From: a bacterium BMS3Abin14
GTDB taxonomy: Bacteria; BMS3Abin14
Assembly: GCA_002897695.1 (NCBI GenBank)
Contig: BDTG01000021.1
Span: 1 to 49,688, forward strand
Direction of reading: 5' to 3'
DNA: 49,688 nucleotides
In this document: positions 364 through 20,009 of the stretch, in pieces
How the letters are laid out: every line of letters begins with the position of its first letter
Numbering within the stretch: the first letter of the stretch is position 1
Translations under genes and position numbers: made by a program
The notes under the pieces: model-generated
What the model was told of the DNA's origin: nothing
What the model saw: the letters and a program-made list of their open reading frames with translations, nothing else
The model's database searches: none

Positions 364-633
364 ATGACGAAACTTGTAAAACGTAAGGATATCTGTCGCC
401 TGGTTGGAATCTCTCCGTCCAAGGTCAATTTCTACACGACCCAGGGGCTGTTTCCGCTCAAAGGGAGAACCCGTGGGGGCTATGGTCTCTACGATCCTGA
501 TACGATTCTGGCTCGCTTCCGCAGAATTCGTGAACTGAAGGACGACAGGCTTACCATCGTGGAGATACGGGAACGGATCATAGAGGAGGAGAAGGAGCGA
601 GGGCAGTTCCTCGAGCTGAAATTTGACGACTAG
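364..633 (+). CDS. Small MerR-family transcriptional regulator
   Basis: Encodes 89 residues from ATG 364, preceded by GAGGGG 4 nt upstream; an in-frame TTG at 346 would add six residues. The N-terminal half is a MerR winged helix-turn-helix: KRKDICRLVGISPSKVNFY is the recognition region, followed by the wing (TRGGYGLYD) and a helix rich in charged residues (IRERIIEEEKE). There is no effector-binding domain beyond a short coiled-coil stretch, so this is a minimal MerR protein and no ligand can be read from it. It overlaps the HD-GYP gene by 11 nt and is first in the long c-di-GMP/pilus cluster, so control of that cluster is the obvious guess. A dyad overlaps the putative -35 box upstream. Confidence 0.8.
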   Translation: MTKLVKRKDICRLVGISPSKVNFYTTQGLFPLKGRTRGGYGLYDPDTILARFRRIRELKDDRLTIVEIRERIIEEEKERGQFLELKFDD

Positions 634-2845
634 GAAGAAAAAACCTGCGAACAGGCCAAGGCCATCGGTCCTGCGCTTGCTCGTGCGTCAGAGTTCCGAG
701 GAACTGACCGAGGTTCTCCGGAGCGTCCTCCCTCATGCCATTTTCCAGATGGAAGTTGTCCAGACGGTTGCGGAACTCATTGAGCTGTTGCAAGAGAGCC
801 GGGTAGAAGTCATTCTTCTGGATCTTTCCGCGCCGAGCATAGAGAACAAGCGTTCCTTCGATGCCATCCGTAGCCGTTACCTTTCTCCGCCTGTTCTGGT
901 TTACGGGGATAGCGGATCCATTCCCACAATGTCGAATTTTCTCAAACATGGGGCCCACGGTATGTTCTGCGTCACCGACGGGTCTGATACCATTATTCAC
1001 GCTGTGCGTCAGGCTGCCTCGCACTACCAAATTATCAAGGAAAATGCGGATCTTAAGGATACGCTTGACCGAAAGAAGAAGGCTGTCGATATCCTTGAGC
1101 GTCTTGGCGAGGCCATGTCGACAATTTTTGACGTCAGAAAGATACTCAATCTTACCCTGAGGGTCATCCGAAGGGCGCTTGACTGCGAGGGCTGCTGCCT
1201 CTACCTGGTCGACAGGGACTCCGGGACGCTCATTGACAGCCGGGACCTGGGCGAAAACGGCGAACATCCGCAGATGGAACTGTGGGGGAGCGGAGGGAAG
1301 GGGCGACAACACATCCTCCGGAGGGCCGCCGAGCTTTCATTAAAAAGGGCCGTCCCGCTTAATCTGGATGGACCCGATGGCCTGATGGACCCGGATCAAT
1401 CAGCTTGCGAAAACCAGGACGAGGTAGATCTGAGGAACATTCTCACGGCTCCATTGTCGGTCAGGGGCGACATCCTGGGAGTGCTGGTCGCTGTAAACCG
1501 GTTGGGCCGCAAGGATTTTTCGGGGGGCGATATTGAGATCCTGGAAGCGGTGGCCCGACAGACTGCCTTTGCACTCTCGGGGATCCGCACCCTGAAAAGC
1601 AAGCAATCGTTTCAGGAAAAACTGGGCGAGCAGGTCCACCTGGCAACGGCCCGTCTCCAGGAAAGGAACCTTGCACTCCGGAAACAGCTTGAGGAGAAGA
1701 AGGAGGCCAATAGAAAGATCGCGGCGATGGCTTCCGAGATCAAGGAGAAGAACCAGTCCCTCGAGGACATGATAGAGCAGTTCAGGGTCATCCACGGGAT
1801 AAGCCAGGTCATTGGTTCGGAACTTGAGCACGAGAGCCTGCTAAAGAAGATCATCCTTGAATCGGCATCCCTGCTGAAGGCGGAGACCGTCTCTCTCATG
1901 CTCAAAGACACCGAGGGAAGCCTTACGATCAGGCATGCCCTTGGCCTCAGCAATGATGTCATCAAGAACACGCGGGTCAGGCCGGGCGAGGGAATAGCGG
2001 GTTGGGTAGTCGACGAGGGGAAACCCATCCTGGTCAAGGACGTCAATAAAATTCGCCATGAGGCATCGGATAGCACGCTTTATCACAGTAATTCGCTGCT
2101 CTGTGTCCCCCTCAAGATCAAGGGAAAGATCTCCGGAGTGCTCAATGTGACCAACCGGGTGGGAGGGGGAGCCTTTGATGAGAGGGACCTTTTCCTCCTG
2201 ACGATCCTCGGAAATCATGCCGCCATCGCCATTGAGAACGCCAAGCTGTACGGCGCCATAAGGGAAAACTATTTCAATACCATCAAGGCCCTGGTGAATG
2301 CGGTTGAGGCCAAGGACAGCTGGACCAAGGATCATTCCGAAAACGTCACCAACTACAGTCTCAAGATCGCTGATTATCTTGGCCTGTCCACCGAACAGAA
2401 GGACATCATCCAGTATGCGGGCGTTCTTCACGATATCGGAAAAGTCGTAATCAGCAGCACCATCACCGACAAGCCAGGCCGGCTGACGGAAGAGGAGTGG
2501 GACCAGATCAAGGAGCATCCCCTTATCGGGCAGAGGATCCTTGATCCCATAGATTTTCTCGAGCCTGTCAAGATCTGCATTCAGACCCATCACGAGCGCT
2601 GCGATGGCTCGGGCTATCCCTTCGGCCTGAAGGCCCACGAAATTCCGCTGGAGACCAGAATTCTTTCTGTGGCCGATGCCTTTGATGCCATGGTGCATTC
2701 CCGTCCCTACAGGGAAGCGCTCAGCCTGGGTGATGCCATGACCGAGTTGAAACGATCCTCCGGGACCCAGTTCGATCCCGCCGTCGTGGACAGTCTGGTC
2801 AGGATAATCGAGGCCGAGGAGGTGTCGGGCGGGCTGGAGCATTAG
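623..2845 (+). CDS. Receiver-like/GAF/GAF/HD-GYP protein, predicted c-di-GMP phosphodiesterase
   Basis: 740 residues. Order of domains: a receiver-like domain (about 15-135, with a possible phospho-acceptor Asp in ILLDLS), a first GAF domain (about 160-325), a coiled coil (about 330-395), a second GAF domain (about 395-545) and a C-terminal HD-GYP domain. The catalytic signatures are intact: His-Asp at 603-604 (LHDIGK) and HHERCDGSGYP from about 656. HD-GYP proteins of this type hydrolyse c-di-GMP with a binuclear or trinuclear metal centre. No membrane segment is seen, so it is cytosolic. Start is TTG 623, inside the end of the MerR-type gene; no strong ribosome site is visible and the first in-frame ATG would truncate the receiver domain. 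It is followed after 1 nt by a diguanylate cyclase, an eraser-writer pair upstream of a c-di-GMP-responsive pilus ATPase. The activity is inferred from motifs. Confidence 0.92.
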   Translation: MTTRKKKPANRPRPSVLRLLVRQSSEELTEVLRSVLPHAIFQMEVVQTVAELIELLQESRVEVILLDLSAPSIENKRSFDAIRSRYLSPPVLVYGDSGSIPTMSNFLKHGAHGMFCVTDGSDTIIHAVRQAASHYQIIKENADLKDTLDRKKKAVDILERLGEAMSTIFDVRKILNLTLRVIRRALDCEGCCLYLVDRDSGTLIDSRDLGENGEHPQMELWGSGGKGRQHILRRAAELSLKRAVPLNLDGPDGLMDPDQSACENQDEVDLRNILTAPLSVRGDILGVLVAVNRLGRKDFSGGDIEILEAVARQTAFALSGIRTLKSKQSFQEKLGEQVHLATARLQERNLALRKQLEEKKEANRKIAAMASEIKEKNQSLEDMIEQFRVIHGISQVIGSELEHESLLKKIILESASLLKAETVSLMLKDTEGSLTIRHALGLSNDVIKNTRVRPGEGIAGWVVDEGKPILVKDVNKIRHEASDSTLYHSNSLLCVPLKIKGKISGVLNVTNRVGGGAFDERDLFLLTILGNHAAIAIENAKLYGAIRENYFNTIKALVNAVEAKDSWTKDHSENVTNYSLKIADYLGLSTEQKDIIQYAGVLHDIGKVVISSTITDKPGRLTEEEWDQIKEHPLIGQRILDPIDFLEPVKICIQTHHERCDGSGYPFGLKAHEIPLETRILSVADAFDAMVHSRPYREALSLGDAMTELKRSSGTQFDPAVVDSLVRIIEAEEVSGGLEH

Positions 2846-2846
2846 G

Positions 2847-4937
2847 GTGGACACCGTGGGGAAGACACCGATCGTTCGGGGAGGCGGCGCTGCTGCCTAT
2901 CTCAGGGTGTTTACCGAATCACTGGGCATCCACCTTCTCCTCGCGGGTCCCGACGGGAAACCAGTGGGGAGGGTAGAGGGCCTCAGGGGGTTGTGCGGCT
3001 GGATGTGCGCGGCCGATCGGAAACCCTGCGTGGATGTCTGCAAAAAACCGAAGTCCGGTTTTTATCCGGATGACGTCATCCGGATAAACCGTTGTCCTCT
3101 CGGATTAACCGTATTTGTGATGCCCATCATCTACAGGAAGGAACTCATGGGCTACCTCCGGGGCGGCGGCGTTCTGCCGCGGGATGGGTTTGTACCGGAG
3201 GTCTCCGTGCTGGTCGGGGCCGGGATGGATCGTTCCGATGCCTGTGCGGCAGCAGCTATGACCGCGAAAAATTCTTTCCGGCCCGTTTCGGAGCTTTCGG
3301 CTTTGCTGGGGGGGGTAAAGAAAAGCCTTCAGGTGTTTGCGGGCACGCTGCGGCTCAAGAGCGCGGCCGACAGGAGGATAAGGCAGATTGAAGCTCTGTT
3401 CGGCTTTCTGGAGGGGCTTCGGGCAGAACTTCCCAGGAAGGACGTTGGCGGGATTTTCGTTAACGCCCTCAACATCCTGTTCGGGGTCGATTCGGTCTTC
3501 GTGGCGGTGCCCAGGCCCCTCGGGGAAGGGCTCTTCCTGCTGGCAGCTTCCGGGGATGTCACCCTTCTTCCGGAAGAGGTGGGGAGTAATGTTGGAGAGC
3601 GATTCTCCAGGATCTTCCATAACATTGCTGAACCGTATCTCATTGAGGACATGGTCGCTCTTCTTGACGCCGGTTTCCCGGAGGGTGTATGCAGCGCGTG
3701 GTTTATTCCGGTTGGCGCCGGTGAAAGGATGAGCGGGCTCCTGGTTCTCCTTAATTCATCCTTGTCCAGCGCGGATGTTCGGCTGATAAAAGGGTTTGCC
3801 GGGGTCCTGGCCCAGGCATTCCACGTATTTAATCTGGAAAGGCAGGCGGAATCCCTCATGGATGAAAGGGCGTTTCTCCTCTCACTCGTCAGGGAACTGC
3901 TGGGAGCTGTGGAGGAGGATGATGTCTACGAAATCCTCCTGTCGAAGGCCTGCTCCATAACGGGCGCTGAGAAAGGTTCCATCATGTTCCGTGATGACGA
4001 CGGAAAGCTTGCCGTAAGGAAGACATTCGGACCCGACGAGGAGGTCCTGAGGGGATATCGGATCTGTCCGGGGGAGGGAATTGCGGGGAAGGTCCTCGCC
4101 ACGGGCACTCCCATGTGCGTCGAGGATGTCGCGGTGGACCTCAGGGGCAAGCCAAAGCGCACCAGATACCGGACCGGATCGTTCATATCCCTTCCACTGT
4201 TCCCGGGCAGCCATCCCCCCGGGGTTCTCAACCTTTCGGACAAGGTTTCGGGGGCCCCATTCACCCGGGTAGATATGGACAGGGTTCGGGCCATCAGCGA
4301 CCATGCTCTTCTGGCCGTAGAGCGGGCCTACTATATCAACAGGTGGAAGGATGTTTCCTCCCAGGCATCCACCGACGCCCTTACCGGCCTGGCGAACAGG
4401 ATGCACCTCATGGAAAACCTGGGAAGGGAAATGGAGAGGTGCCGCCGTCACGGGCGGGCCCTGTCGGTGATCATGGCGGACGTGGACCGGTTCAAGGAAT
4501 ACAACGATCACAACGGGCATCTCGCCGGGGACGACGCGTTGAAGGTTATCGCCTCCGTTATGAAGCGGTCGGTTAGAAACATCGACATCGCCTGCCGGTT
4601 CGGAGGGGAGGAGTTCTGCCTCGTCCTTCCGGACGTGGATACCCCCGGAGCCATGATAATCGCCGAGCGGATTCGCGATGAGGTTGCGCGAACATGTTTT
4701 CCCGGTGAGGAGAGGATGGCTTCATCCGTCCTGACCCTCAGCCTCGGAGTCGCCGGTTTCCACGGGTTCGCGAAGTCGGCAGAGGGGTTGATCCATTCAG
4801 CCGACATCGCCCTTTATCGCGCGAAGAGGGACGGCCGCAACCTTGTCCGGAGCGCGGAACTTCTCGGGGATTCGCCTACGGCTTGCGTGTCGGGTCAGGG
4901 GGCCTTTCAGGATGGGAGGGGAACAAACCATGCCTAA
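2847..4937 (+). CDS. Cys-rich sensor/GAF/GAF/GGDEF protein, predicted diguanylate cyclase
   Basis: 696 residues from GTG 2847, one base after the HD-GYP stop. The N-terminal region (about 15-120) has five cysteines (50, 54, 61, 65, 83) in a layout resembling PocR-type sensory domains, and could bind a metal, an Fe-S cluster or a small ligand. Two GAF domains follow (about 190-335 and 345-505). The C-terminal GGDEF domain (about 520-675) has an intact active site, RFGGEEF, with GGEEF at 586-590. An inhibitory I-site RxxD (RNID) lies exactly five residues upstream, so product feedback inhibition is expected. It makes c-di-GMP from two GTP. Pairing with the upstream HD-GYP protein gives both synthesis and breakdown in one transcript. 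No membrane segment is seen. Confidence 0.92.
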   Translation: MDTVGKTPIVRGGGAAAYLRVFTESLGIHLLLAGPDGKPVGRVEGLRGLCGWMCAADRKPCVDVCKKPKSGFYPDDVIRINRCPLGLTVFVMPIIYRKELMGYLRGGGVLPRDGFVPEVSVLVGAGMDRSDACAAAAMTAKNSFRPVSELSALLGGVKKSLQVFAGTLRLKSAADRRIRQIEALFGFLEGLRAELPRKDVGGIFVNALNILFGVDSVFVAVPRPLGEGLFLLAASGDVTLLPEEVGSNVGERFSRIFHNIAEPYLIEDMVALLDAGFPEGVCSAWFIPVGAGERMSGLLVLLNSSLSSADVRLIKGFAGVLAQAFHVFNLERQAESLMDERAFLLSLVRELLGAVEEDDVYEILLSKACSITGAEKGSIMFRDDDGKLAVRKTFGPDEEVLRGYRICPGEGIAGKVLATGTPMCVEDVAVDLRGKPKRTRYRTGSFISLPLFPGSHPPGVLNLSDKVSGAPFTRVDMDRVRAISDHALLAVERAYYINRWKDVSSQASTDALTGLANRMHLMENLGREMERCRRHGRALSVIMADVDRFKEYNDHNGHLAGDDALKVIASVMKRSVRNIDIACRFGGEEFCLVLPDVDTPGAMIIAERIRDEVARTCFPGEERMASSVLTLSLGVAGFHGFAKSAEGLIHSADIALYRAKRDGRNLVRSAELLGDSPTACVSGQGAFQDGRGTNHA

Positions 4938-5520
4938 GGCAGCAGAAAAAAACCGGAGGAGAAACTTCTTTATCAAACAGTGGTTTCAGCTGAGGTACAT
5001 GCTTCTCCTTGTTGTCGGTACCCTCCTTGGAGGTGCGGTTTATGCTGTTGTCCTGAGGTATTTTTTGCGGAAACGTCTTCTGGAACTGATGTATCAGAGT
5101 CATTCTCTCCTTGTTAATACATGGCCGGCCCTTTATCCCCTCATTTTCAGATCTACCATGGTTCTGTTTCTAGGTTGTCTGGTACTGTTGTTCGTTTCCC
5201 TGCGGATCTTCGCGGCCAGGGTAGAAAGGGCGGCCGGGGAGGTGGAAAGTCTTTGCAGTGACCTGGGGGAAAACCTGAATGATGCTGTGGAGTTCAGGAG
5301 CATTTCCGTAAAGGAGTTCAATCAGGTTGGGGCAAGGACTGTGGAATTGGTCCGGTTATACCAGGGCCGGTGGGAAAAAATCTCGCAGGAGGCGGAAGAA
5401 ATTTCAGAGTTTTTAGGGGATATTCGGGAGGGGGAAAGCGGCCTTTCCCCGGATCTGACTCGCAGGCTGGATGTTCTGATTGGGCGTCTTTCCTCCATCA
5501 GGGAGGATTTGAATGGCTAG
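4930..5520 (+). CDS. Two-TM membrane protein with HAMP-like cytoplasmic coiled coil
   Basis: 196 residues from ATG 4930, which overlaps the end of the GGDEF gene and follows GGGAGGGG. A basic N-terminus leads into one membrane segment (about 24-45), a short periplasmic loop and a second segment (about 75-95). A HAMP-like linker (FAARVERAAGEVESL) and a long charged helical tail with coiled-coil character follow. No enzymatic domain is present. Its layout is that of a receptor without an output domain and resembles the protein at 6038, with the tetraheme cytochrome between them. The three probably form a membrane module. Function is not known; a redox sensor is one possibility. Confidence 0.75.
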   Translation: MPKAAEKNRRRNFFIKQWFQLRYMLLLVVGTLLGGAVYAVVLRYFLRKRLLELMYQSHSLLVNTWPALYPLIFRSTMVLFLGCLVLLFVSLRIFAARVERAAGEVESLCSDLGENLNDAVEFRSISVKEFNQVGARTVELVRLYQGRWEKISQEAEEISEFLGDIREGESGLSPDLTRRLDVLIGRLSSIREDLNG

Positions 5521-6028
5521 GATAACGTGGCGGTATGTCCCGGCTATCCTGGTGATAGCCCTCACGGGGACGGTCCTCTGGTCCGGTATCGATACGTTGA
5601 AGGACCCCCACGCCGCCCTGTCCGATAGCCGAAGATGCGATCTGTGCCATGAGCTCGGGGATGACGGGACGGTGGCGCCCGACGGGTTCCCGGAGCCCAT
5701 TATCGACCAGTGTTATTCGTGTCATCCCCCCGAGAAAATAGGCAGATCCCATCCGGTAAACGTTGATCTTAAGCGAAACAGGAGGTTCCCGGACATGGAT
5801 GTCCCTGAGGTTCTTATGGTGGGCTGGGGTTGGGAATATGTCCTGACGTGCGTTACGTGCCACACGGTACACGGAGACTGGAAATCCACCATCAAAAGCT
5901 CCCCTGGTGAGAGGCCGCTGAACCCGGGCGGGGATCCCCTGTATTACCGGACCTACTACCTTCGAATTCCTGGGGACCCGAAACTGGGATGGGCTCCACT
6001 TTGTGATGCGTGCCATAAGCTGTTTTAG
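5513..6028 (+). CDS. Membrane-anchored tetraheme cytochrome c
   Basis: 171 residues. One N-terminal hydrophobic segment (about 8-26) acts as uncleaved anchor or signal peptide. Four CxxCH heme-attachment motifs follow: CDLCH (42-46), CYSCH (67-71), CVTCH (113-117) and CDACH (164-168). Additional histidines (33, 80, 120) could be distal ligands, suggesting bis-His low-spin hemes. The final motif lies three residues from the C-terminus. The gene overlaps its upstream neighbour (ATGGCTAG) and is followed after 9 nt by another two-TM protein. It should sit in the periplasm and carry electrons or sense redox state. Finding it inside a pilus assembly cluster between two receptor-like membrane proteins is unusual. 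The exact cytochrome family is not clear. Confidence 0.9.
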   Translation: MARITWRYVPAILVIALTGTVLWSGIDTLKDPHAALSDSRRCDLCHELGDDGTVAPDGFPEPIIDQCYSCHPPEKIGRSHPVNVDLKRNRRFPDMDVPEVLMVGWGWEYVLTCVTCHTVHGDWKSTIKSSPGERPLNPGGDPLYYRTYYLRIPGDPKLGWAPLCDACHKLF

Positions 6029-6037
6029 GGAGGTACC

Positions 6038-6622
6038 ATGAGCAGGTTCATCAATTCCGTCTTTATTCTGCGAAATCTCATCGGTTTTGCAGCAGCGACC
6101 CTCACCGCGTGTTTTATTGCCTATTCCATCCTCTACTGGACACTTTCAAGGAACCTGGGGGAATCCTACAGAGGGGCTTTCTATCTCATGAAGACCCTGA
6201 GGGAAGGTGCAGGTCCCGTGGTCTGGTTCGCGGTCACCCTTTACGGAATCGTCATCTCAATATTCATTCTAGCCATAGCCCTGTTCGCCACACACAAGGT
6301 TGCCGGCCCCCTTTACCGGCTGGAGATGGTCCTGGGGTTGGCCATGAGGGGCGAACTGCCGGAGTCGGTGCATTTCAGAACCAGGGATCAGATGGTTCCT
6401 CTCGCCGAATCCATCGGAGGCCTTATTTCTGTTCTCAGAAGAAAGGAGATCGTTTTGATGGAAATGGCAGAGGAGATCCGATCCGCGCGTGACGAGTTGG
6501 ATGGGAAAATCAATGCCAAAGATCCTGGATGGGTGGATTTGGCGGCGGGTGTAAAAGAGATGCTCTTAAGCCTTTCCGTAGCAGCCCGATCCGGGAGAGG
6601 GGAGATCATAGATGGCCGGTAA
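6038..6622 (+). CDS. Two-TM HAMP-like membrane protein
   Basis: 194 residues from ATG 6038 with GGGAGG seven nt upstream. Two membrane segments (about 12-35 and 65-88) flank a periplasmic loop of about 30 residues. The second is followed by HKVAGPLYRLE, the start of a typical HAMP linker (the Pro-Leu pair is characteristic), and a helical cytoplasmic tail. There is no kinase, methyl-accepting or cyclase output domain. The layout parallels the protein at 4930; together with the cytochrome between them they look like a sensor or scaffold trio. The stop overlaps the start of the ATPase gene, so translation is probably coupled. Function unknown. Confidence 0.78.
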   Translation: MSRFINSVFILRNLIGFAAATLTACFIAYSILYWTLSRNLGESYRGAFYLMKTLREGAGPVVWFAVTLYGIVISIFILAIALFATHKVAGPLYRLEMVLGLAMRGELPESVHFRTRDQMVPLAESIGGLISVLRRKEIVLMEMAEEIRSARDELDGKINAKDPGWVDLAAGVKEMLLSLSVAARSGRGEIIDGR

Positions 6623-8306
6623 AGGCAGGAAGAGGATCGGTGAGGTCCTGGTGGATGCCGGTTTTGTCAGCCAGGAGCAGCTCACAGATGCGCTTTCCGA
6701 ATCCGTCCGCAACGGGGTCCGAGTCGGGAAGGTCCTCGTGGACCGCGGCCTCATCTCGGAGGCCGATCTCACCCGCGCTCTTTCCAGCCAGCTCAGTGTC
6801 GAGATGGTCAATCTTAAGGAATTCCCGCCCGACGGGGACCTGGTCGACCTGCTTCCCGAGGCGCTGGCGAGGAGGTACAACATCCTTCCCTACAGGCTGG
6901 ATGGGAATACCCTGGTGGTGGTCATGGCGGATCCCCTTAACGTTTTCGCCACAGATGCGCTGCGGAGCGTTACCGGGCGGTCCTTGAAGAAGATGATAGC
7001 CGCCGAGTCGGAGATCAGCGAGTGGATTGGTGACCTTTATGGCCGGGGACCTCTCTCGGGATCTGTTCTTGCCGATGCCATAGCTGATTCGGTTGCCTTT
7101 GGGACGGGGGAAGAATCGACGGATCGGCTGATGAGGCTTGCCGGGGAGACACCGGTTGTCCGCCTGCTTAATGCGCTCCTCGGCCAGGCCATCGGTCAAC
7201 GAGCAAGCGACATTCACATCGAACCCCAGGAAAAGGAGATCAGGATCAGGATCAGGGTCGACGGTATTCTGGAAGAGGCAGCCAAAGTGCCGTCCCACCT
7301 GAAACTGGCCCTGACCTCCCGCATCAAGATCGTTTCCGGTATGGATATTGCCGAGAAACGTGTTCCGCAGGATGGACGCTTCAGGTGGACCGAGGGGACG
7401 CATGATGTCGATGTGAGGGCTTCGACCCTCCCCACCGTCTACGGGGAAAAAGTTGTCCTGCGGATTCTGGATCGGGCTGAGGACGTCCTCGGTCTTACGG
7501 AGCTGGGGTTCGGGGAGGAACAGCAGGTCGTCATCAGGGAACTCATCCACAGGCCCTACGGCATCATCCTCCTGACTGGTCCCACCGGCAGCGGAAAGAC
7601 GACCACCCTCTATGCGGTCCTCAGCGAGATAAACGTCATCGGACGGAACATCGTCACAGTGGAGGACCCCGTGGAGTATGAGATTGCGGGGCTCAACCAG
7701 GTGCAGGTTGCCCCCAATATCGGGTTGGGGTTTTCCTCAGTGCTGCGAAACGTTCTCAGACAGGATCCCGACGTAGTCATGGTGGGGGAAATCCGTGATG
7801 CCGAGACGGCGAATATCGCCATACACGCAGCTTTGACCGGGCACCTCGTCTTTTCCACTCTCCACACCAACGACGCGGCCAGTGCAATGCCGCGGCTGCT
7901 CGAACTCGGGGTAGAGCCCTACCTGATTCGATCCTCAGTCCTGGGGCTCCTCGGGCAGCGTCTGGTGCGGAGGATCTGCCCGAGCTGCAAGGCGGAGGTA
8001 TCGCTTTCCCAGGACGTCCGCTCCCTCCTTTGGGGGGAGTGGGTGGGAGACACATTTTTCCAGGGCCGGGGATGCGATGAGTGCAGGGGGACGGGCTACC
8101 GTGGAAGGACGGTGATCGCGGAGATAATAAGAGTCAACCGGCCGATCAGGGAACTCGTCTCCCGTGAGATCTCCCAGGAGACCCTTTTGGCCGTGTTGAG
8201 GAAGGAGGGGTTCACCAGCATGAGGGAGGAGGGTGTCGCCAAGGCCGCCAGGGGGGAAACCAGCCTGGAGGAGGTCTTCCGCGTCACCCAGGACGTTGAG
8301 CTGTGA
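6612..8306 (+). CDS. gspE: GspE/PilB/MshE-type assembly ATPase with MshEN c-di-GMP-binding domain
   Basis: 564 residues. The N-terminus holds two 24-residue MshEN motifs, residues 8-31 (R8-I-G ... S31) and 37-60 (R37-V-G ... Q60), separated by exactly five residues. This is the architecture shown for the c-di-GMP receptor domain of Vibrio MshE; the final Gln of the first motif is Ser here. The C-terminal motor has Walker A GPTGSGKTTT (about 320), an Asp box, Walker B VVMVGEIRD (about 386), a His box (STLHTND) and the zinc-binding CPSC...CDEC pair (about 455 and 487). It is a hexameric cytoplasmic ATPase driving pilin polymerisation with the GspF-like platform encoded next. I read it as an MSHA-type extension ATPase; T2SS GspE is the alternative name. 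No PilT-type retraction ATPase is in the window. Confidence 0.95.
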   Translation: MAGKGRKRIGEVLVDAGFVSQEQLTDALSESVRNGVRVGKVLVDRGLISEADLTRALSSQLSVEMVNLKEFPPDGDLVDLLPEALARRYNILPYRLDGNTLVVVMADPLNVFATDALRSVTGRSLKKMIAAESEISEWIGDLYGRGPLSGSVLADAIADSVAFGTGEESTDRLMRLAGETPVVRLLNALLGQAIGQRASDIHIEPQEKEIRIRIRVDGILEEAAKVPSHLKLALTSRIKIVSGMDIAEKRVPQDGRFRWTEGTHDVDVRASTLPTVYGEKVVLRILDRAEDVLGLTELGFGEEQQVVIRELIHRPYGIILLTGPTGSGKTTTLYAVLSEINVIGRNIVTVEDPVEYEIAGLNQVQVAPNIGLGFSSVLRNVLRQDPDVVMVGEIRDAETANIAIHAALTGHLVFSTLHTNDAASAMPRLLELGVEPYLIRSSVLGLLGQRLVRRICPSCKAEVSLSQDVRSLLWGEWVGDTFFQGRGCDECRGTGYRGRTVIAEIIRVNRPIRELVSREISQETLLAVLRKEGFTSMREEGVAKAARGETSLEEVFRVTQDVEL

Positions 8307-8339: not shown

Positions 8340-9545
8340 TTGCCCAATTTTATGTATCGTGCAAGGGACGATGAGGGGAAACTCGTCCAGGGGACGCTGG
8401 AGTCCTCATCCGAGTCGGCCGTGGCGGCGAGGATCAGCGACATGGGCTATCATCCCGTGGATATCTCGCGGGTGCGGGTGCGCCGGGGAATTTTTAAGCA
8501 GCGCAGGGTGAAGGTCCCCGTAGCCGAGGTGGTGATCTTCTATCGGCAGATGGCAACGATGAATGACGCCGGCCTGTCCATCATCTACAGCCTCAACACC
8601 CTTGCGGAAGGGGCAGGGAACCGCCGTTTCAGGCAGGTCATCGAATCAGTCCGGATGGCGGTGGAGGGTGGGGAAACCCTGTCGGACGCCATTGCCGCGC
8701 ATCCCGGTGTATTCGACGAGGTCGCCATTAACATGATCCGTGTGGGAGAGACCAGCGGCAACCTTTCGGAGGTGCTCGAGAGACTGGCTGAGTATGGGGA
8801 AAGGTCTGCCGAGATCCGGTCGCGGGTAAAAAACGCCATGGCTTACCCCGTCGTCCTTTCCGTCCTGGCCCTGGGGGTGGTGATCTTCAGCCTTGTGGTC
8901 GTGATGCCCCGCTTCGCGGCGATCTTCGCCAAGATGAATGCGCCTTTGCCCCTGCCGACGAGGATGCTGATGTCTGCCAGTTCGGTGGTAAGACACCAGG
9001 GGTGGCTTATTCTAGGCATTATCATTCTGGCCGGTGTAATATTCCGGCTGTTCCTGAGGACAGACGGGGGTCGCTGGGCCTGGGACGGGTTTCTGTTTCG
9101 CCTGCCTGTTTTCGGGCCCTTGAGGTTGAAGAACCTCTCGGCCCGCTTTTCCCGGAATATGGGCACTCTCATTGAGAGCGGAGTGGATATCCTTTTCTCC
9201 TTCGAGGTCTGCGAGAGGACCTTGAAAAGCGTCCGTCTGGAAAAAGCGCTGCGGGCTACCCGGGACAGCGTCAGGGAGGGGGAGAGCATCGCCCCTGTCC
9301 TGGAAATGCAGCACGTCTTCCCCCCTCTTCTCCACCGTATGATCGCTGTGGGCGAGGAAACGGGGCGCCTCGGACAGATGCTTTTCAGACTGGCCGGATA
9401 CTACGATCTCGAAGTGGAAATGACTATCAAGCGTCTCACAACCCTGCTCGAGCCGTTCATGATCATCATCATGGCCGCGGTGGTGGCCTTCGTTGCGGGA
9501 GCCACGCTGCTGCCGCTGTTTAATCTGGTTAAATACATGCACTGA
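8340..9545 (+). CDS. gspF: GspF/MshG-type inner-membrane platform protein
   Basis: 401 residues. Start is TTG 8340, giving MPNFMYRARD, which matches the usual GspF/PilC N-terminus (MPxFxYxA); AAAGGA lies upstream. Two repeated GspF domains (about 70-190 and 270-395) and three membrane segments (about 165-190, 215-235, 370-395) are visible. It sits in the inner membrane and couples the ATPase motor to pilin insertion. It follows the ATPase gene by 33 nt. No start was taken further upstream because the in-frame sequence there lacks homology and a ribosome site. Length is normal for the family. Confidence 0.95.
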   Translation: MPNFMYRARDDEGKLVQGTLESSSESAVAARISDMGYHPVDISRVRVRRGIFKQRRVKVPVAEVVIFYRQMATMNDAGLSIIYSLNTLAEGAGNRRFRQVIESVRMAVEGGETLSDAIAAHPGVFDEVAINMIRVGETSGNLSEVLERLAEYGERSAEIRSRVKNAMAYPVVLSVLALGVVIFSLVVVMPRFAAIFAKMNAPLPLPTRMLMSASSVVRHQGWLILGIIILAGVIFRLFLRTDGGRWAWDGFLFRLPVFGPLRLKNLSARFSRNMGTLIESGVDILFSFEVCERTLKSVRLEKALRATRDSVREGESIAPVLEMQHVFPPLLHRMIAVGEETGRLGQMLFRLAGYYDLEVEMTIKRLTTLLEPFMIIIMAAVVAFVAGATLLPLFNLVKYMH

Positions 9546-9766: not shown

Positions 9767-10141
9767 ATGAAAAATCGAGGAGAAAAAGGTTTTACACTGA
9801 TAGAGCTGCTGCTGGTGATCCTTATTATCACCGGACTGGCGGCCATCGTGGTCCCCAACTACATGAAGGTGTCGGACGCATCCAATGTCGCAGTTGATGC
9901 CGCCAACAAAGAAGCGTTGAAGGCGGCTACCCGTCTCATGGTTCTTGATGGAGGGCTTGTGGCTGTATCTGATGCCGGCGAACTGAATACCACTGGCGGG
10001 ACGGTCAACTTAGCGGCCTATGACAGTACCGTCTATGTTCACGGACCGTACATCGAGTCGATACCTGTGAGCTCGGTTGCCGGTACCGTGTATTCGGTTA
10101 CTGTAGCCGCAACGACAGGGGCGATTACTATTACCCCTTAG
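9767..10141 (+). CDS. Major pilin (type IVa/GspG-like, MshA position)
   Basis: 124 residues from ATG 9767, behind AGGAGG. The prepilin leader MKNRGEKG is followed by FTLIELLLVILIITGLAA: cleavage after Gly8, Phe at +1 and Glu at +5, all canonical. The mature chain of about 116 residues is small, ends in a beta-rich Val/Thr segment and lacks cysteines and the calcium-loop motif of GspG. It stands apart from the minor pilins, with its own sigma-54-like promoter upstream and a strong stem-loop immediately downstream, as expected for the most abundant subunit. A prepilin peptidase is required but is not encoded here. Whether it forms a pilus or a pseudopilus cannot be told from sequence. Confidence 0.93.
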   Translation: MKNRGEKGFTLIELLLVILIITGLAAIVVPNYMKVSDASNVAVDAANKEALKAATRLMVLDGGLVAVSDAGELNTTGGTVNLAAYDSTVYVHGPYIESIPVSSVAGTVYSVTVAATTGAITITP

Positions 10142-10152
10142 GCAGTTTGATT

Positions 10153-10185
10153 TTCCTCGGCCCCTATGCCCTGGGGGCCGGGGAA
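10153..10185 (+). terminator. Strong GC-rich stem-loop between major pilin and minor pilins
   Basis: TTCCTCGGCCCC (10153-10164) pairs with GGGGCCGGGGAA (10174-10185), 12 pairs including one G-T wobble, around a 9-nt loop, starting 11 nt after the pilin stop. No T-tract follows, so it is not a textbook intrinsic terminator. It more likely stabilises the upstream pilin mRNA or partly attenuates read-through, raising the ratio of major to minor pilin. Confidence 0.6.
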
Positions 10186-10206
10186 CCAAGGCTGAGGTTC
10201 TGCACA

Positions 10207-10713
10207 TTGAAAGGATTCACTCTGGTGGAGGTGCTCGTTACTCTGGGGCTTCTCCTTGCCATAGCCCTGATAGCCGTTTTTACCTTCTTCTCCTCCTCTT
10301 CCGTCACTCAGCTGAGAGCGGCTGTGGAGCAGGTTGCCGGCGACGTCCGCATGGCCCAGGACCTTGCCGTAAGCGAACGGACCCGCTACAGTATCCAGTT
10401 TACCGCCGGATCCCCTTCCTACACACTGCAGAAGTGGGATACGGCAACGTCCGCCTGGATCGCCGTCTCAGGCACCGAAGCGCCCCCTTCCCTCCCCAGC
10501 TCAACCGCCGTTCAGTCCGTGGCGGATATCACCGCCGGTATCCTCAGCTTCGATTCCATGGGCGCCCCCTACGAAGGGGCCGGGACCGGGACCCCTCTTG
10601 TTGGCACCGGGGCGGGAGGCCTGGACCACATCATCATCTCCAGTGGAAAGGCCGGGCGGACGGGCGAGGTGACGATAACGCCGGGGACCGGGATGGTGGA
10701 GATAAACCGGTGA
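10207..10713 (+). CDS. Minor pilin, GspH/MshC-like
   Basis: 168 residues if started at TTG 10207, giving MKGFTLVEVLVTLG, a short prepilin leader cleaved after Gly with Phe +1 and Glu +5. GAGG lies 8 nt upstream. The longer frame from TTG 10147 would run through the stem-loop and is less likely. After the hydrophobic helix come a region like GspH/FimT (QVAGDVRMAQDLAVSERTRYSI) and a beta-rich globular part. It occupies the position of MshC directly behind the major pilin. Minor pilins prime assembly and may cap the fibre. The stop overlaps the next start (GTGA). Confidence 0.85.
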   Translation: MKGFTLVEVLVTLGLLLAIALIAVFTFFSSSSVTQLRAAVEQVAGDVRMAQDLAVSERTRYSIQFTAGSPSYTLQKWDTATSAWIAVSGTEAPPSLPSSTAVQSVADITAGILSFDSMGAPYEGAGTGTPLVGTGAGGLDHIIISSGKAGRTGEVTITPGTGMVEINR

Positions 10714-11135
10714 CAGGTCCGCGTCGTGATGATGTGGGAGCTTCTGCGACTGAGACCGTCGTGAGCGTCGGAGTCCTCATGATCATCTTCGCCCTCATGC
10801 TGAGTGTCTACAGCGGCCAGGTTCACAGGGCGGATGAGGGCATATTGAGAGCGCAGCTCAGGGCCTTGAGGATGCAGGCAAAACTGTTTAAGGTCGTCCG
10901 GGGCCGCTGGCCCCGGGATACCAGGGAATTGGTGCAGGATTCTTTGAGCATTTTCCCACTGGGCGCGGCGGACCTTCCAGAAGAGCCGGCCAGCAAACTG
11001 TTGAAGCCCGGCCCTGTCCTGGCTGTCGCGGCGGACGGGGATGGGTACCCCATTGATCCCTGGGGTAATCGCTTCGTGTACGAGCGCCTTACGGGCCACA
11101 TCAGGCCCGGGACGGAGGACTATGAAAGCTGGTAG
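10710..11135 (+). CDS. GspG-like minor pilin with non-canonical prepilin site
   Basis: 141 residues from GTG 10710, overlapping the previous stop. The leader MTGPRRDDVG is followed by ASATETVVSVGVLMIIFALM: Gly at -1 and Glu at +5 are kept, but +1 is Ala rather than Phe or Met. The C-terminal part contains IDPWGNRFVYE, the DPWG motif typical of GspG pseudopilins, and ends in Trp. An upstream in-frame extension exists but overlaps the previous gene in another frame and lacks signals. There is no counterpart in the Vibrio msh order, where mshD follows mshC. Processing by prepilin peptidase is probable but not certain. Confidence 0.78.
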   Translation: MTGPRRDDVGASATETVVSVGVLMIIFALMLSVYSGQVHRADEGILRAQLRALRMQAKLFKVVRGRWPRDTRELVQDSLSIFPLGAADLPEEPASKLLKPGPVLAVAADGDGYPIDPWGNRFVYERLTGHIRPGTEDYESW

Positions 11136-11649
11136 GAGCGCAGGCTTTACTCTCGTGGAGATGGTCCTGTCTCTGGCAATTCTGGCGGTGGCTATCCCGG
11201 TGCTGGCAAGCCTTTTTGCGGGGGGGCTCAGACAACCCCAGTGGGCCAGGGAACAGACACGGGCGCTGTTTCTCGCTCAGGGGCTGATGGAGGAGATTGT
11301 AACCCACAAGTGGGACGAGGCGGCGACCCCTCCGGGGCACACAAACGTTCCCAGCGCCATCGGCCTTGATGCGGGGGAGGCGGCCGGAGACAGGTCCACC
11401 TGGGACGATATAGACGATTACGACGGGCTTACGGATAACCCCATGCACGATGCCGTGGGGACGACCCTGACAGGGTTTGCCGGATTCTGGTCCCAGACCC
11501 GGGTGGACTATGTGGCGTCGGACCAGGCGGCCCCGGACTTCGAGACCGCCCTCGGGAAGGGAGCCGGCACCGACTTCAAGCTGATTAACGTAACGGTGAA
11601 CTGGCCCGATGGAAACGTCAGTCTTACTGCTGTGAGGGGAAATTTCTGA
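11122..11649 (+). CDS. Minor pilin, GspI/PilV/MshD-like
   Basis: 175 residues from ATG 11122, overlapping the preceding gene by 14 nt. MKAGRSAG is a canonical prepilin leader, followed by FTLVEMVLSLAILAVAIPVL (Phe +1, Glu +5). The stretch after the helix (ALFLAQGLMEEIVTHKWDE) resembles GspI/PilV proteins. The globular domain is acidic and may bind calcium (DDIDDYDG). It is one of five minor pilins translated from overlapping frames and matches the mshD slot. The stop TGA overlaps the next ATG. Confidence 0.87.
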   Translation: MKAGRSAGFTLVEMVLSLAILAVAIPVLASLFAGGLRQPQWAREQTRALFLAQGLMEEIVTHKWDEAATPPGHTNVPSAIGLDAGEAAGDRSTWDDIDDYDGLTDNPMHDAVGTTLTGFAGFWSQTRVDYVASDQAAPDFETALGKGAGTDFKLINVTVNWPDGNVSLTAVRGNF

Positions 11650-12182
11650 TGATTTTCGCAAGGTCGCCGGCGCCGGACGGAAGCCAGGGAGGCCTGACCC
11701 TCGTAGAGCTGCTCCTGGCCCTGGCCATCATGGCGGGCGTGTCGGTGGTGTTCGTCGTCCTCCTGACCTCCGGGCTCGACGTCTGGGAGGCCGGGACGGC
11801 CCAGTCCCGAACGGACCAGGAGACACGGCTGGCCCTGGAGAGGATTTCCAGGGAGATAAGGGTCTCACGCAGCAGGGCGGGTGATATCACAATAGGCGCG
11901 GGGAACACGTCCATCTCTTACCCGCTTGATACGAACAACGACGGCGCCTACGAAACCACGGTCCGTTATTTTCTCAATGGTTCAGATCTCATGCGTCAGG
12001 AAAATGGTCTGCCGGCGGCGGGGGACAGGGTGCTCAAGGACGTAACCGGTGTGGTTTTCGATGACATCTACGGAAACAGCAGCCTCATCGCGGTCACTCT
12101 GGCCGTCACCCACCCGGTGGAGGGTGCCAAGGGGAAGGGCGCCGTAACGATGGTGACCAGCGTGGGACCTCGAAATGATTGA
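11649..12182 (+). CDS. Minor pilin, GspJ/PilW/MshO-like
   Basis: 177 residues from ATG 11649 (TGATG overlap). The leader ends in GG and is followed by LTLVELLLALAIMAGVSVVF, with Leu +1 and Glu +5. The sequence LALERISREIRVSRSRAGDI after the helix is typical of GspJ/PilW. A possible calcium-binding Asp/Asn-rich loop (DTNNDGAYE) lies near residue 95. It fits the mshO slot. GspJ-type proteins sit at the tip complex of pseudopili. Confidence 0.87.
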   Translation: MIFARSPAPDGSQGGLTLVELLLALAIMAGVSVVFVVLLTSGLDVWEAGTAQSRTDQETRLALERISREIRVSRSRAGDITIGAGNTSISYPLDTNNDGAYETTVRYFLNGSDLMRQENGLPAAGDRVLKDVTGVVFDDIYGNSSLIAVTLAVTHPVEGAKGKGAVTMVTSVGPRND

Positions 12183-12598
12183 TGGACTTTTGGCGAGGTT
12201 GTCGAATGGCTGATCCTCCTTGGAAAAGGGCTTTTGATCGGGAGGGAGGTACGATTCTTGTGGTCGTTATGGCGGTGATCCTCACACTTCTCGTACTCGG
12301 TTCGGTGTTTATCCGGCTAATGGGTTCCGAGGCCGCTATCGCCGAGAACCTGGAATCGAGGACTCAGGCCCTGTACCTGGCCGAATCCGGTGTACAGGCC
12401 GGCATTGTCTATCTTCAGGACAACCCGGCCTGGCCCGGTATTCTGCCCAAAGCCCAGGTGTCATATCCCCTGGCGGGAGGGACCATGTCCTACAGGATCG
12501 ACACCGTCGCCGGGTCGGGGTCCAGCCAGGCGTTCGTGGTGGGAACCGGAGATGTGGACGGTACCCGGAGGGAACTGGAAGTGACGGTGTCGCGATGA
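12182..12598 (+). CDS. PilX/MshP-like minor pilin
   Basis: 138 residues from ATG 12182 (TGATG overlap with the previous gene); ATG 12206, with CGAGG seven nt upstream, would give 130 residues and is a serious alternative. REGGTILVVVMAVILTLLVLG is a PilX N-terminal helix, which lacks the +5 Glu of ordinary pilins. ALYLAESGVQAGIVYLQ is the conserved segment after it. The protein is short and ends in a beta-rich domain. PilX/GspK/MshP proteins join the tip complex. The stop overlaps the start of the large secreted protein, as in mshP-mshQ. Confidence 0.8.
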   Translation: MDFWRGCRMADPPWKRAFDREGGTILVVVMAVILTLLVLGSVFIRLMGSEAAIAENLESRTQALYLAESGVQAGIVYLQDNPAWPGILPKAQVSYPLAGGTMSYRIDTVAGSGSSQAFVVGTGDVDGTRRELEVTVSR

Positions 12599-14875: not shown

Positions 14876-16471
14876 ATGTATCTGAAGAGATTCGGCCTGA
14901 AGGAAGAGCCTTTCAGGCTCACGCCGGACCCCAGATTTTTCTACCGGGGAAAGCAGCACGAGCGGGCCCTGGCGGAACTCCTCTATGGCGTGGAGCAGAG
15001 GAAGGGCTTCATGGTCCTGACGGGAGAGGTGGGCACCGGCAAAACCACTGTCTGCCGGGCACTTCTTGGCGCCCTCGGTCCGGAATATGAGACAGCCCTG
15101 ATCCTCAATCCCCGTTTGACGGCCGACGAACTCATCGGAACGGTCGTCCGGGATTTCGGAGTAAGGGACCTGCCGGCCGGCGCAACGAAGGGCGAACTCA
15201 TCGCGCATCTCAACCGGTTCCTTCTTACGGTCGCGCTTGATGGAAGGGGGGCCGTACTCCTTGTGGACGAGTCCCAGGAGTTGTCGGGGGACCTTCTCGA
15301 GGAGCTGCGGCTCTTGAGCAACCTCGAGACGGACAGGGAAAAACTCCTGCAGATCGTCCTCATCGGTCAGCCCGAACTGGTGGAAACCCTGTCCACGATG
15401 GAACTGCGGCAGTTAAGACAACGGGTTGCTGTCTGGGCACATCTCGGACCCCTCGACCCGGAGGAGACCGCATCCTACATCGGCAGACGCCTTGCGGTAG
15501 CCTCAGGTGGGCACCACGTCGTGCATTTTACCCCAAAGGCACGCAAAGCCCTTAACCGCCTTAGCGGAGGCTACCCAAGGACCATCAATCTTATTGCCGA
15601 CCGTGCTCTGCTGGGTGCTTTTTCCAGGAATACGGCCCGGGTGAATTCGAGCATGGTTGTCAAGGCCGGCCGGGAGGTGGCGGGGAGAAAAACCGTCTCG
15701 GTCAGAGGTCGGCAGACCGCGGCGGTCGTCGTGGCGGCAGCCGCAATCGCAATGGTTTCCTTTCCATCCGGTCTTGGGCATCTGACCCGTGTTTTTGGAC
15801 CTGAAGTTTCCAATGGCGTTGTCACCGAAAGACCTGCGGCCGTGGGAGCGATTCCTGATCTGCTTTCCCGTTACTTCATCCTGACCGGATCCGACTACCT
15901 GGGCAGAGAGGCACGGCTGTGGCGGATCAACGGGCGGACGATACAGGATATAGCCCTCGCTTTGCACGGCATCGAGGCCAGGGAGCAGTACGGCATGTCA
16001 ATGGCGGTGGTGTCTCTCGATGAGGACCTTTGGAGGCTAACCGGGGCCGTGGGGATTGTCCCTGTGGAAAAGACCGGAGGGTTCGGCCTGATCCGCCCTG
16101 ACGGGAACGCAGCCGGCATGTGGAGGATCATAGTTCCAGGAGAAGGTGAACAACACCTCGTGGACGGGGTTGAGGGCGGTGGACCGCCTGGAATGACGAA
16201 GGCGCTGGTGCTCTTTAGGCCTGTTCCCGGGCTGAGATTGGCGCTCAGGAGGGGTGACCGCGGTCCGGCCGTCAGTGTCCTGCAAACCGCCCTGGTTTCC
16301 CTCGGCATGCTTGCCCGTGATCAGGCCATCGGGACATTCGGACCGAGAACGGAAAAAGCCATCGCAACCCTCCAGAAGCGTTGGGGCCTCCAGGCCACCG
16401 GAGTACTTGACGACGTCACCGGGTATTACCTGTCCCGATTCGATGGGAGAGGATGGAGAAGACAGACATGA
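14876..16471 (+). CDS. ExeA/GspA/MshM-like AAA ATPase with peptidoglycan-binding domain
   Basis: 531 residues. The N-terminus MYLKRFGLKEEPFRLTPDP is the ExeA signature. Walker A GEVGTGKTT lies near 50 and Walker B VLLVDES near 125. One membrane segment (about 282-300) is followed by a periplasmic part ending in a peptidoglycan-binding domain (about 450-528, RGDRGPAVSVLQ ... GTFGPRTEKAI). ExeA-type proteins bind peptidoglycan and, with ExeB, help place the secretin in the outer membrane. The next gene encodes the ExeB-like N-terminus plus TPRs. MSHA loci have the equivalent MshM. Start ATG 14876 follows AGGGGGTGAG. Confidence 0.92.
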   Translation: MYLKRFGLKEEPFRLTPDPRFFYRGKQHERALAELLYGVEQRKGFMVLTGEVGTGKTTVCRALLGALGPEYETALILNPRLTADELIGTVVRDFGVRDLPAGATKGELIAHLNRFLLTVALDGRGAVLLVDESQELSGDLLEELRLLSNLETDREKLLQIVLIGQPELVETLSTMELRQLRQRVAVWAHLGPLDPEETASYIGRRLAVASGGHHVVHFTPKARKALNRLSGGYPRTINLIADRALLGAFSRNTARVNSSMVVKAGREVAGRKTVSVRGRQTAAVVVAAAAIAMVSFPSGLGHLTRVFGPEVSNGVVTERPAAVGAIPDLLSRYFILTGSDYLGREARLWRINGRTIQDIALALHGIEAREQYGMSMAVVSLDEDLWRLTGAVGIVPVEKTGGFGLIRPDGNAAGMWRIIVPGEGEQHLVDGVEGGGPPGMTKALVLFRPVPGLRLALRRGDRGPAVSVLQTALVSLGMLARDQAIGTFGPRTEKAIATLQKRWGLQATGVLDDVTGYYLSRFDGRGWRRQT

Positions 16472-17295
16472 GCATTATCCATGATGCTTTAAAGAAGGTT
16501 CAAGGTCCGCCTGATATCGGGTTGCCCGGGGAGGCCCCACCCGGACCCGATAAGTGTCGATCATCCCGAAAAGGTTCCTCGATTCTGACTGTCGCAGCGG
16601 TTACGGTGGGGGTGCTTGCGCTTGGAGTCCTGGTCTGGAGGGTGGGGCTGCTGTCGAAGGGGGTGGACACACAGCGCGGTATTCCGGTGTCCGGTACTGT
16701 TTCTTCCGCAATGACAACGCCCCCAGCGGCAAAAGAGACCGTCCCCCGTCCAACAACCACGATTGACCCCGCGGAACAACTGGCTACGGATGCCCTGCGG
16801 CACTTTCGTACAGGGGATATTTCCACAGCGGAGGAGGAGTACAGGCAGGTCCTCGCGCTGCCTGTGGGCAACCGTGCTGAAATTGCCAACAACCTGGCGG
16901 TTGTGCTCAGAAAGGAGGGGAAGCTCAAGGAGGCCCTCTCCCTCTACAACAGCTCCCTTGCAAAAAATCCCCGTTATGCGGAGGCACTGAATAACAGGGC
17001 AGTCGTGTTTCGTCGGATGGGGAGATACCCGGAGGCGCAGAGGGACCTGAAGAAGGCCCTGGCCCTGGTCCCGGAATATGCGGTGGCGCAAGCTAATCTC
17101 GCCATTGTTCTTGAGGCTGCCGGACGAAAAAAGGCGGCAGTGGCAGCCTACCGTAGATACCTTGCCAACCCCTCTCGCGGCCCGGGGCTGGAGGATGCCC
17201 TTATCCGCAGAAGGGTCTCGCTTATCGAGGAGGGAATAGCCGCCCTGGAGCTTCGAAAGGGCGTTGGAGGCAATAGCGAATCAGGCGGGAGGTGA
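16468..17295 (+). CDS. GspB/MshN-like membrane protein with TPR repeats
   Basis: 275 residues from ATG 16468 (ATGA overlap; GGAG 9 nt upstream); ATG 16453 would add five residues. The N-terminus MSIIHDALKKVQ is the short motif shared by GspB/ExeB and MshN. One membrane segment (about 38-58) leads to a Pro/Thr-rich linker and at least three TPR units (about 105-240). It probably works with the preceding ExeA-like ATPase in secretin placement. The membrane anchor and TPR architecture match MshN more than GspB, which lacks TPRs. Confidence 0.87.
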   Translation: MSIIHDALKKVQGPPDIGLPGEAPPGPDKCRSSRKGSSILTVAAVTVGVLALGVLVWRVGLLSKGVDTQRGIPVSGTVSSAMTTPPAAKETVPRPTTTIDPAEQLATDALRHFRTGDISTAEEEYRQVLALPVGNRAEIANNLAVVLRKEGKLKEALSLYNSSLAKNPRYAEALNNRAVVFRRMGRYPEAQRDLKKALALVPEYAVAQANLAIVLEAAGRKKAAVAAYRRYLANPSRGPGLEDALIRRRVSLIEEGIAALELRKGVGGNSESGGR

Positions 17296-17301
17296 CGTTT
17301 C

Positions 17302-18339
17302 ATGTCTATTGGTTCAGGAAAAGTCCTGGGGATCGATATCGGTCGGAGGGATCTTAAAATCGTTCAGGTAAATGGGGCCCCTAAAAGCCCCAGCCTGGCC
17401 GCTTGGGCGATTGTGGCGAAGGAGAAGCGATCCTTTGAGGGGGACGGGTGGCGGCCCGACCTATTTGAGGATATTGCCCTTTCCCTCCAGCTCAACGGCA
17501 TTAAGGGGGGTAAGGCATACGTCTCCCTTCCGGACGATATGGTGCGGCTTTCCTACCGTAAGCTTCCCGCCATGCCCCCGGAGGAGCTGAAAAGCGCCAT
17601 TGTCTGGGAGATCCGCAAGGAATGGGATCTGGCAGTCGACGAGATGGTTGTAGACTATATTGAAATGGGCAAAGTAGTGGATGGTACGAGTAGTATGAAT
17701 GCCTATCTGGCTGTCGTTTGCAGGAAAAGGCCGCTTGAGTTTCTCGGCAGAAGTTTGCTGGACATGGGGATCAAGGTCCAGTCGCTGGAGTTTTCGACCC
17801 TTGCCCAGATTTCCTGTCTGCCGGCTTCAGGCGGTACGAACAACGCTATCGGTCTGGTGGACCTCGGTGCGTCCCAGACCAACCTCATTGTCCTCAAGGA
17901 TGGCTCTGTAAGGTTTTTTCGCATGATCCCTTCAGGAGGCGACAGTATCAGCGATGCAATCTCACAGGCAACGGGACTTACCTGGTGGGAAGCGGAAAAA
18001 CACAAGCGAATGGGTGTCCCGTCCGGGGAGGGGGGAGACGAGCAGATGGCCCGGGCCTTTCGCGGCACGCTGGAACTCATTGTCGATGAGGTGTTTCAGA
18101 CCCTCCGGTTTTATGTCGCCGAACGCAAGGAAGGTCCTGTGGAACGTCTTATGCTCACGGGAGGAGGTGCACTGATGCCAGGTGTAGATGGGGCATTTCA
18201 GGATGTGCTCGGCCTGCCCGTCGAGGTGTTAAACCCATTTGGGAATCTGCCGGTATCCGCCGGCGTGAGGGACAGTGACATGATGGTCTCCCAGGGCGGC
18301 AGGCTGGTTACAGCTCTGGGATTGGCCCTGAAGGAGTGA
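17302..18339 (+). CDS. pilM: PilM/MshI-type pilus assembly ATPase-like protein
   Basis: 345 residues. Actin-like fold signatures are visible: GIDIGRRDLKIVQV at the N-terminus (phosphate-1 loop), IGLVDLGASQTNLIV in the middle (phosphate-2) and LTGGGALMPGVD near residue 290 (adenosine motif). PilM is cytoplasmic, binds ATP and the N-terminal NLLP motif of PilN, and links the motor to the PilNOP frame. RBS GGGAGGTGA lies upstream. The next gene indeed begins with a NLLP motif. Confidence 0.94.
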   Translation: MSIGSGKVLGIDIGRRDLKIVQVNGAPKSPSLAAWAIVAKEKRSFEGDGWRPDLFEDIALSLQLNGIKGGKAYVSLPDDMVRLSYRKLPAMPPEELKSAIVWEIRKEWDLAVDEMVVDYIEMGKVVDGTSSMNAYLAVVCRKRPLEFLGRSLLDMGIKVQSLEFSTLAQISCLPASGGTNNAIGLVDLGASQTNLIVLKDGSVRFFRMIPSGGDSISDAISQATGLTWWEAEKHKRMGVPSGEGGDEQMARAFRGTLELIVDEVFQTLRFYVAERKEGPVERLMLTGGGALMPGVDGAFQDVLGLPVEVLNPFGNLPVSAGVRDSDMMVSQGGRLVTALGLALKE

Positions 18340-18346
18340 GGTCGAG

Positions 18347-18934: not shown

Positions 18935-18935
18935 G

Positions 18936-19559: not shown

Positions 19560-19594
19560 TACTTTTCGCTTTCCGACCCTATCAAGGAGGAGTA

Positions 19595-19996: not shown

Positions 19997-20009
19997 AGGG
20001 GTTAAAGCC

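Follow-up and report, generated by a model that had tools for sequence, protein, structure and literature searches.

How bacteria match the building of pili and extracellular electron transfer to the supply of electron acceptors is an open question, and it is touched by a locus of the bacterium BMS3Abin14 in which a tetraheme cytochrome gene, flanked by genes for two small membrane proteins, stands inside a pilus cluster. The locus belongs to the window, by which we mean the whole stretch of DNA that was analysed (49,688 nucleotides), contig 21 of a 2.28 Mb draft genome. The original prediction regarded the flanking proteins as two receptor-like proteins and suggested that the trio could report periplasmic redox state to c-di-GMP enzymes or to the pilus motor, or supply electrons to the surface structure. 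Here we ask what the three proteins are, where else they occur together and what their position before an assembly ATPase gene may mean.

The trio and its host locus

The trio lies between genes for c-di-GMP enzymes and the genes of the pilus machinery (Table 1). The host locus can be recognized as an MSHA/T2SS-like pilus cluster, since an MshEN ATPase, GspF, pilin-like genes, an MshM-like ATPase, PilM, PilN, PilO and a secretin are all present. The tight packing noted in the original prediction was verified from open frames and coordinates: the A gene overlaps both the preceding GGDEF gene and the following cytochrome gene by 8 nt, the cytochrome and C genes are 9 nt apart, and C overlaps the ATPase gene by 11 nt. 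The three genes are real, as their order is kept in two related genomes (G001 and G010) and the dN/dS values of the window relative to G001 are 0.40 for A, 0.31 for the cytochrome and 0.22 for C (0.15 for the ATPase). Within the pilus cluster, the product of positions 12595-14838, surface-like and 747 aa long, gives weak CARDB/DUF7507-like matches and is possibly a tip protein or adhesin.

Table 1. Coordinates of the trio and of its neighbours in the window.
Feature	Position	Strand	Remarks
GAF-HD-GYP protein (c-di-GMP phosphodiesterase family)	623..2845	+	upstream of the trio; retained in 3/3 orthologous clusters
PocR-GAF-GGDEF diguanylate cyclase-type protein	2847..4937	+	position empty of a GGDEF gene in G010
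A, HAMP-A type two-helix membrane protein	4930..5520	+	196 aa; N-terminal 'RRRNFFIKQWFQLR' motif; periplasmic-loop His58 and Pro70; degenerate HAMP core
Tetraheme c-type cytochrome	5513..6028	+	171 aa; N-terminal hydrophobic segment; CXXCH at 42, 67, 113, 164; extra invariant His 33, 80, 120
C, HAMP-C type two-helix membrane protein	6038..6622	+	194 aa; intact HAMP core (THKVAGPLYRLE...RTRDQMVPLAESI); loop without His
GspE/PilB-type assembly ATPase	6612..8306	+	T2SSE and MshEN domains; MshE-type c-di-GMP-binding motif
GspF/PilC-type inner membrane platform protein	8340..9545	+	
Pilin and minor pilin-like genes	9767..12598	+	N_methyl, GspG-like, PilX_N
ExeA/MshM-like ATPase, TPR protein, PilM, PilN, PilO, PilP-like, secretin	14876..21260	+	

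Among the 61 genomes searched, the only ones besides the window genome with full-length orthologues of the cytochrome and of C were G001, of the same genus, and G010, of the same family (SZUA-178), and a scan of genome contigs for the cytochrome matched no record except G010. Orthologous ATPases were likewise confined to these two among 31 genomes searched (87% identity in G001 and 64% in G010; next best 45%), and both sole carriers have the whole trio in unchanged order. The order A-cytochrome-C-GspE-GspF is retained at 74-87% amino acid identity in G001 and at 46-67% in G010, and the order of the trio is constant in all three family genomes having this pilus cluster, with cytochrome identity as low as 57%. 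Conservation of the trio together with pilus genes, proposed as a check in the original prediction, was thus found in 3/3 orthologous pilus clusters. Of the genes for c-di-GMP enzymes, the HD-GYP gene is kept in all three clusters, whereas in G010 no GGDEF gene separates it from A, so that diguanylate cyclase at least is not a required neighbour of the trio. Three further genomes of the family (G002, G004 and G005) have instead, away from pilus genes, a gene for a single HAMP-like protein beside one for a decaheme cytochrome, which matches the window cytochrome in its N-terminal part.

The flanking proteins are paralogues of a HAMP-only family

A and C each contain two hydrophobic segments. 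In the window proteins themselves the HAMP match stays below Pfam thresholds, the HAMP core being degenerate in A and intact in C, whereas 5/19 relatives in the same alignment match HAMP (PF00672; best 1.7e-10). HAMP regions of NarX, NarQ and WalK are also matched among the relatives, the C-type protein of G655 matching the HAMP region of NarX/WalK. No output domain (kinase, MCP or cyclase) was found in A or C with Pfam and NCBIfam. The description of the flanking proteins as two-helix proteins with a HAMP-like region and no output domain therefore agrees with these searches; what needs correction is their portrayal as two separate receptors, because C is recovered at 2.3e-19 by a profile from which it was left out. 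Judged from their sequences, the two are not unrelated receptors but paralogues of ancient origin, members of a broad family of "HAMP-only" proteins with two helices.

An IQ-TREE phylogeny of 77 HAMP-only proteins places A together with one such protein each of G382 and G098 (99/93) and C together with the second one of the same two genomes (96/86), in both of which a multiheme cytochrome is also part of the gene group. Since the tree pairs A and C separately with the HAMP-A and HAMP-C proteins of G382 and G098, the two-paralogue unit is old. Conservation within the HAMP partners is confined to the N-terminal tail, the loop and the HAMP core, and the helices contain no conserved polar or charged residues. 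Only R10, H58 and P70 are invariant in twelve cytochrome-partner HAMP proteins, and a profile of these twelve retrieves homologues from many families of the domain, most of them without an adjacent cytochrome.

The cytochrome and the loop histidine

The window cytochrome, with its four CXXCH motifs and distal His residues, falls into the doubled CXXCH/c3-c7 class of multiheme cytochromes c. The NapC/NirT family profile gave no match with Pfam or NCBIfam, which returned only weak doubled-CXXCH/c7 matches, no sequence relative was found among solved structures, and an AlphaFold model built from two sequences was discarded as unusable (pLDDT 43). An alignment of 14 cytochrome cores contains seven His residues common to all, four of them in CXXCH motifs and three elsewhere (H33, H80 and H120 in the window), so that the conserved core is one distal His short of the eight required for four bis-His hemes. 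Because of this shortfall, the loop His of the A-type proteins is a candidate for the missing heme ligand or contact.

The distribution of the loop His is compatible with such a role. In 38 distinct trio loci (L223 and L257 are one locus, and L280 is incomplete) it is present in 32/38 HAMP-A and 0/38 HAMP-C proteins. A strict form of the idea, in which the His is always present, is ruled out by the six HAMP-A proteins devoid of it, among them two of the four GspE-linked ones described below; all six retain a Met at the residue preceding its position. Among 75 HAMP-only genes, the loop His was found in 20/24 cytochrome-adjacent members and in 5/51 of the others (Fisher p 5e-10, a value that is indicative only, as the sample is biased to high-scoring hits and its members are related). 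The four cytochrome-adjacent genes without it are all C-type trio members. As a separate observation, HAMP-only proteins without the loop His stand beside a type IV pilin-like gene in 11 of about 50 loci from several families (L121, L124, L128, L139, L143, L146, L154, L157, L160, L161 and L165), four of the pilins being confirmed by Pfam N_methyl.

Distribution of the trio and its link to the motor

A search with the cytochrome core gave a match in 26/386 genomes. Ten loci outside the family were examined, and in nine of them the cytochrome lies beside a two-helix protein with a short, His-containing periplasmic loop and a HAMP-like region, most of these partners also having the N-terminal motif "R-R-x-Y-F-I-x-K-x-F-Q"; the tenth locus ends at a contig edge. 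The complete trio of A, C and multiheme cytochrome recurs in at least two other phyla, and 38 distinct loci were read. In the phylum of G382 the C-type profile was matched in 52/246 genomes, and most loci read there are trios of the form C-heptaheme cytochrome-A.

Most trios do not adjoin pilus or c-di-GMP genes, and their neighbours are varied and unrelated, often forming NHL/multiheme clusters reminiscent of extracellular electron transfer. Exclusive association with pili is thereby rejected: trios away from pili, named in the original prediction as grounds for refutation, make up the majority of the relatives. In one family, at least 13 loci have the trio at the end of a conduit-like cluster that encodes NHL proteins, an 11-heme and a 5-heme cytochrome and a protein of about 660 aa, and in many trios an extra tetraheme cytochrome follows; across the wider family the cytochrome may be tetra-, hepta-, deca- or undecaheme. 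The protein of about 660 aa (L265:8775-10763), which has no Pfam or NCBIfam match, is a candidate outer-membrane barrel. Elsewhere, a HAMP-A/cytochrome pair lies between the ribosomal protein genes rplM and rpsI (L094 and L098, in G387 and G267), and HAMP-only genes adjoin PpiC/SurA-like lipoproteins in L136, L137, L135 and L141, with 16- and 25-heme cytochromes also adjacent in L136 and L137.

The link to a pilus/T2SS ATPase holds beyond the three orthologous clusters. In four genomes of one unrelated genus of another phylum (G565, G655, G657 and G662), which belongs to the family with the NHL/multiheme-linked loci, the trio stands directly upstream of GspE-GspF-pseudopilins. Here the order of A and C is reversed relative to the window, and GspE is 43-45% identical to the window GspE, no closer than background; both features indicate a second, independent link, and the sequence comparison points to the neighbourhood of trio and motor having arisen at least twice. 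After the trio of G397 come a tetraheme cytochrome and a 355 aa protein (L260:5622-6686) that contains three MshE-type c-di-GMP-binding motifs but lacks an ATPase domain; for this reason an initial assignment of the protein as PilT, from a weak BLAST hit, was discarded. As the original prediction had supposed, a cytochrome is unusual in such loci: none lies within 1.5 kb of the gene at 27 other GspE/PilB loci.

A proposed mechanism and its rivals

The genomic contexts suggest that the trio probably ties the electron-transfer state of the cell to surface machinery. How it would do so is a more tentative matter. The reading that we favour, at a probability of roughly 0.4, sees the trio as a split redox transducer spanning the membrane, in which the cytochrome would be the sensor and the A/C pair would serve as a HAMP relay. 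The trio would form a redox module of the inner membrane in which a periplasmic, membrane-anchored multiheme cytochrome c is joined by the paralogous HAMP-only pair, A and C presumably assembling into a heteromer of four transmembrane helices. The loop of A (His58 in the window, the neighbouring Met in some relatives) may dock on, or ligate, the one heme in the tetraheme core for which a conserved distal His is missing. A redox change at the heme could then shift the A/C helices and reach the cytoplasmic coils by way of the HAMP region; these coils would act on a neighbouring machine instead of a built-in output domain. In the window this machine would be the MSHA/T2SS-like pilus, with the MshEN-type ATPase directly downstream and the c-di-GMP enzymes upstream.

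A close rival, not mutually exclusive with the transducer, is an inner-membrane electron-transfer anchor, in which A and C hold the cytochrome while it takes electrons from (or returns them to) the quinol pool and passes them to periplasmic or outer-membrane cytochromes or to a surface structure, the HAMP-like helices being structural only. We consider this quite possible, if short of the favoured reading. It accords with the trios ending the NHL/11-heme/5-heme clusters, with the extra tetraheme cytochrome after many trios, with other HAMP-A/cytochrome pairs lying by 16-25 heme cytochromes and PpiC-like lipoproteins, and with the variable heme number of the wider family. On the other hand, the helices lack conserved polar or charged residues suggestive of a quinol site, C-type proteins retain a HAMP signature, and the supply of electrons would not call for a place directly before GspE, which in the window goes along with translational overlap. 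The transducer is preferred on account of this signature, of helices free of conserved residues and of the recurrent placement before GspE, whereas the scarcity of pilus or c-di-GMP neighbours, the non-universal His, the degenerate HAMP core of A and the lack of a conserved cytoplasmic partner argue against it.

The signal might also run inside-out, from a cytoplasmic state (c-di-GMP or ATPase activity) through the HAMP pair to the periplasmic cytochrome, switching electron flow on when the surface structure is built. LapD, which acts on its periplasmic partner, provides the model for this arrangement, and the c-di-GMP enzymes and MshE-motif ATPase adjoining the window trio, as well as the MshE-motif protein near the trio of G397, would suit it; with such neighbours missing at most trios and no c-di-GMP-binding domain in A or C, it appears improbable. 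Hardly better are the prospects of the trio being a passenger, a stand-alone respiratory or stress module that reached the pilus operon by chance and shares no more than its transcript. Although the many unrelated neighbourhoods and the 27 GspE/PilB loci lacking an adjacent cytochrome fit a chance arrival, the tight overlaps survive at 46-64% protein identity and the GspE neighbour arose again in a second phylum; with some 15 independent contexts and a few motor genes in every 3,000 or so genes, about 0.03 such cases would roughly be expected against the 2 seen.

A more specific proposal is that the trio represents an undescribed class of redox transducers, in which an open heme position of a multiheme cytochrome c sensor is filled by a residue of the A-type protein and the A/C HAMP-only heterodimer signals to pilus/type II assembly ATPases. 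This combination is rather unlikely in its entirety; if true, the supply of electron acceptors would govern the building of surface structures. Even if the trio were only an electron-transfer anchor, multiheme cytochromes would have in it a new type of inner-membrane partner.

Comparison with known systems

No description of the A/C/cytochrome trio was found in the open-access literature searched. The host cluster matches MSHA-type and type II secretion loci in its MshEN ATPase, GspF, pilins, MshM-like protein, PilMNO and secretin, and differs from them by the cytochrome and the HAMP pair, which are non-standard parts. As a small, membrane-anchored periplasmic tetraheme protein the cytochrome is like NapC, NrfH and CymA, from which it is set apart by the missing NapC/NirT family match in Pfam and NCBIfam and by its separate HAMP-like partners. 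Porin-cytochrome clusters of the PCC3/PCC4 and Uet types bring together multiheme cytochromes, NHL repeats and a protein of the inner membrane (PMC5566968, PMC10734462), and one family of trio loci resembles them in this clustering. For PCC3/PCC4 this membrane protein is one of five helices with two HX13H motifs (PMC5566968), and an assignment of A or C to it was rejected, as both have two helices and a HAMP-like region and HX13H motifs were not found.

On the signalling side, extracytoplasmic sensing by a c-type heme would be shared with the c-type heme Cache sensors (DUF3365/Tll0287), which are often stand-alone and bind a single heme in a Cache fold (PMC12889525); unlike these, the heme protein of the trio is multiheme, and no Cache domain was matched in A, C or the cytochrome with Pfam. 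A and C resemble HAMP-containing receptors and the HAMP-only Af1503 in having two helices and a HAMP-like region with no kinase or MCP output, and differ from them in the pairing with a cytochrome gene, in the loop His/Met and in being two co-conserved paralogues. Taken together, the compact and widespread three-gene unit, which combines heme chemistry with HAMP-type membrane proteins and stands twice beside a GspE-type motor gene, offers a concrete handle on how surface structures and electron transfer are matched to the available acceptors. Its proposed architecture is analogous to the split receptor NpSRII/NpHtrII, where the sensor is a protein of its own that docks on a HAMP-containing membrane transducer of two helices (PMC5292967), except that the sensor of the trio would be a multiheme cytochrome and its transducer a pair of paralogues devoid of an output domain.
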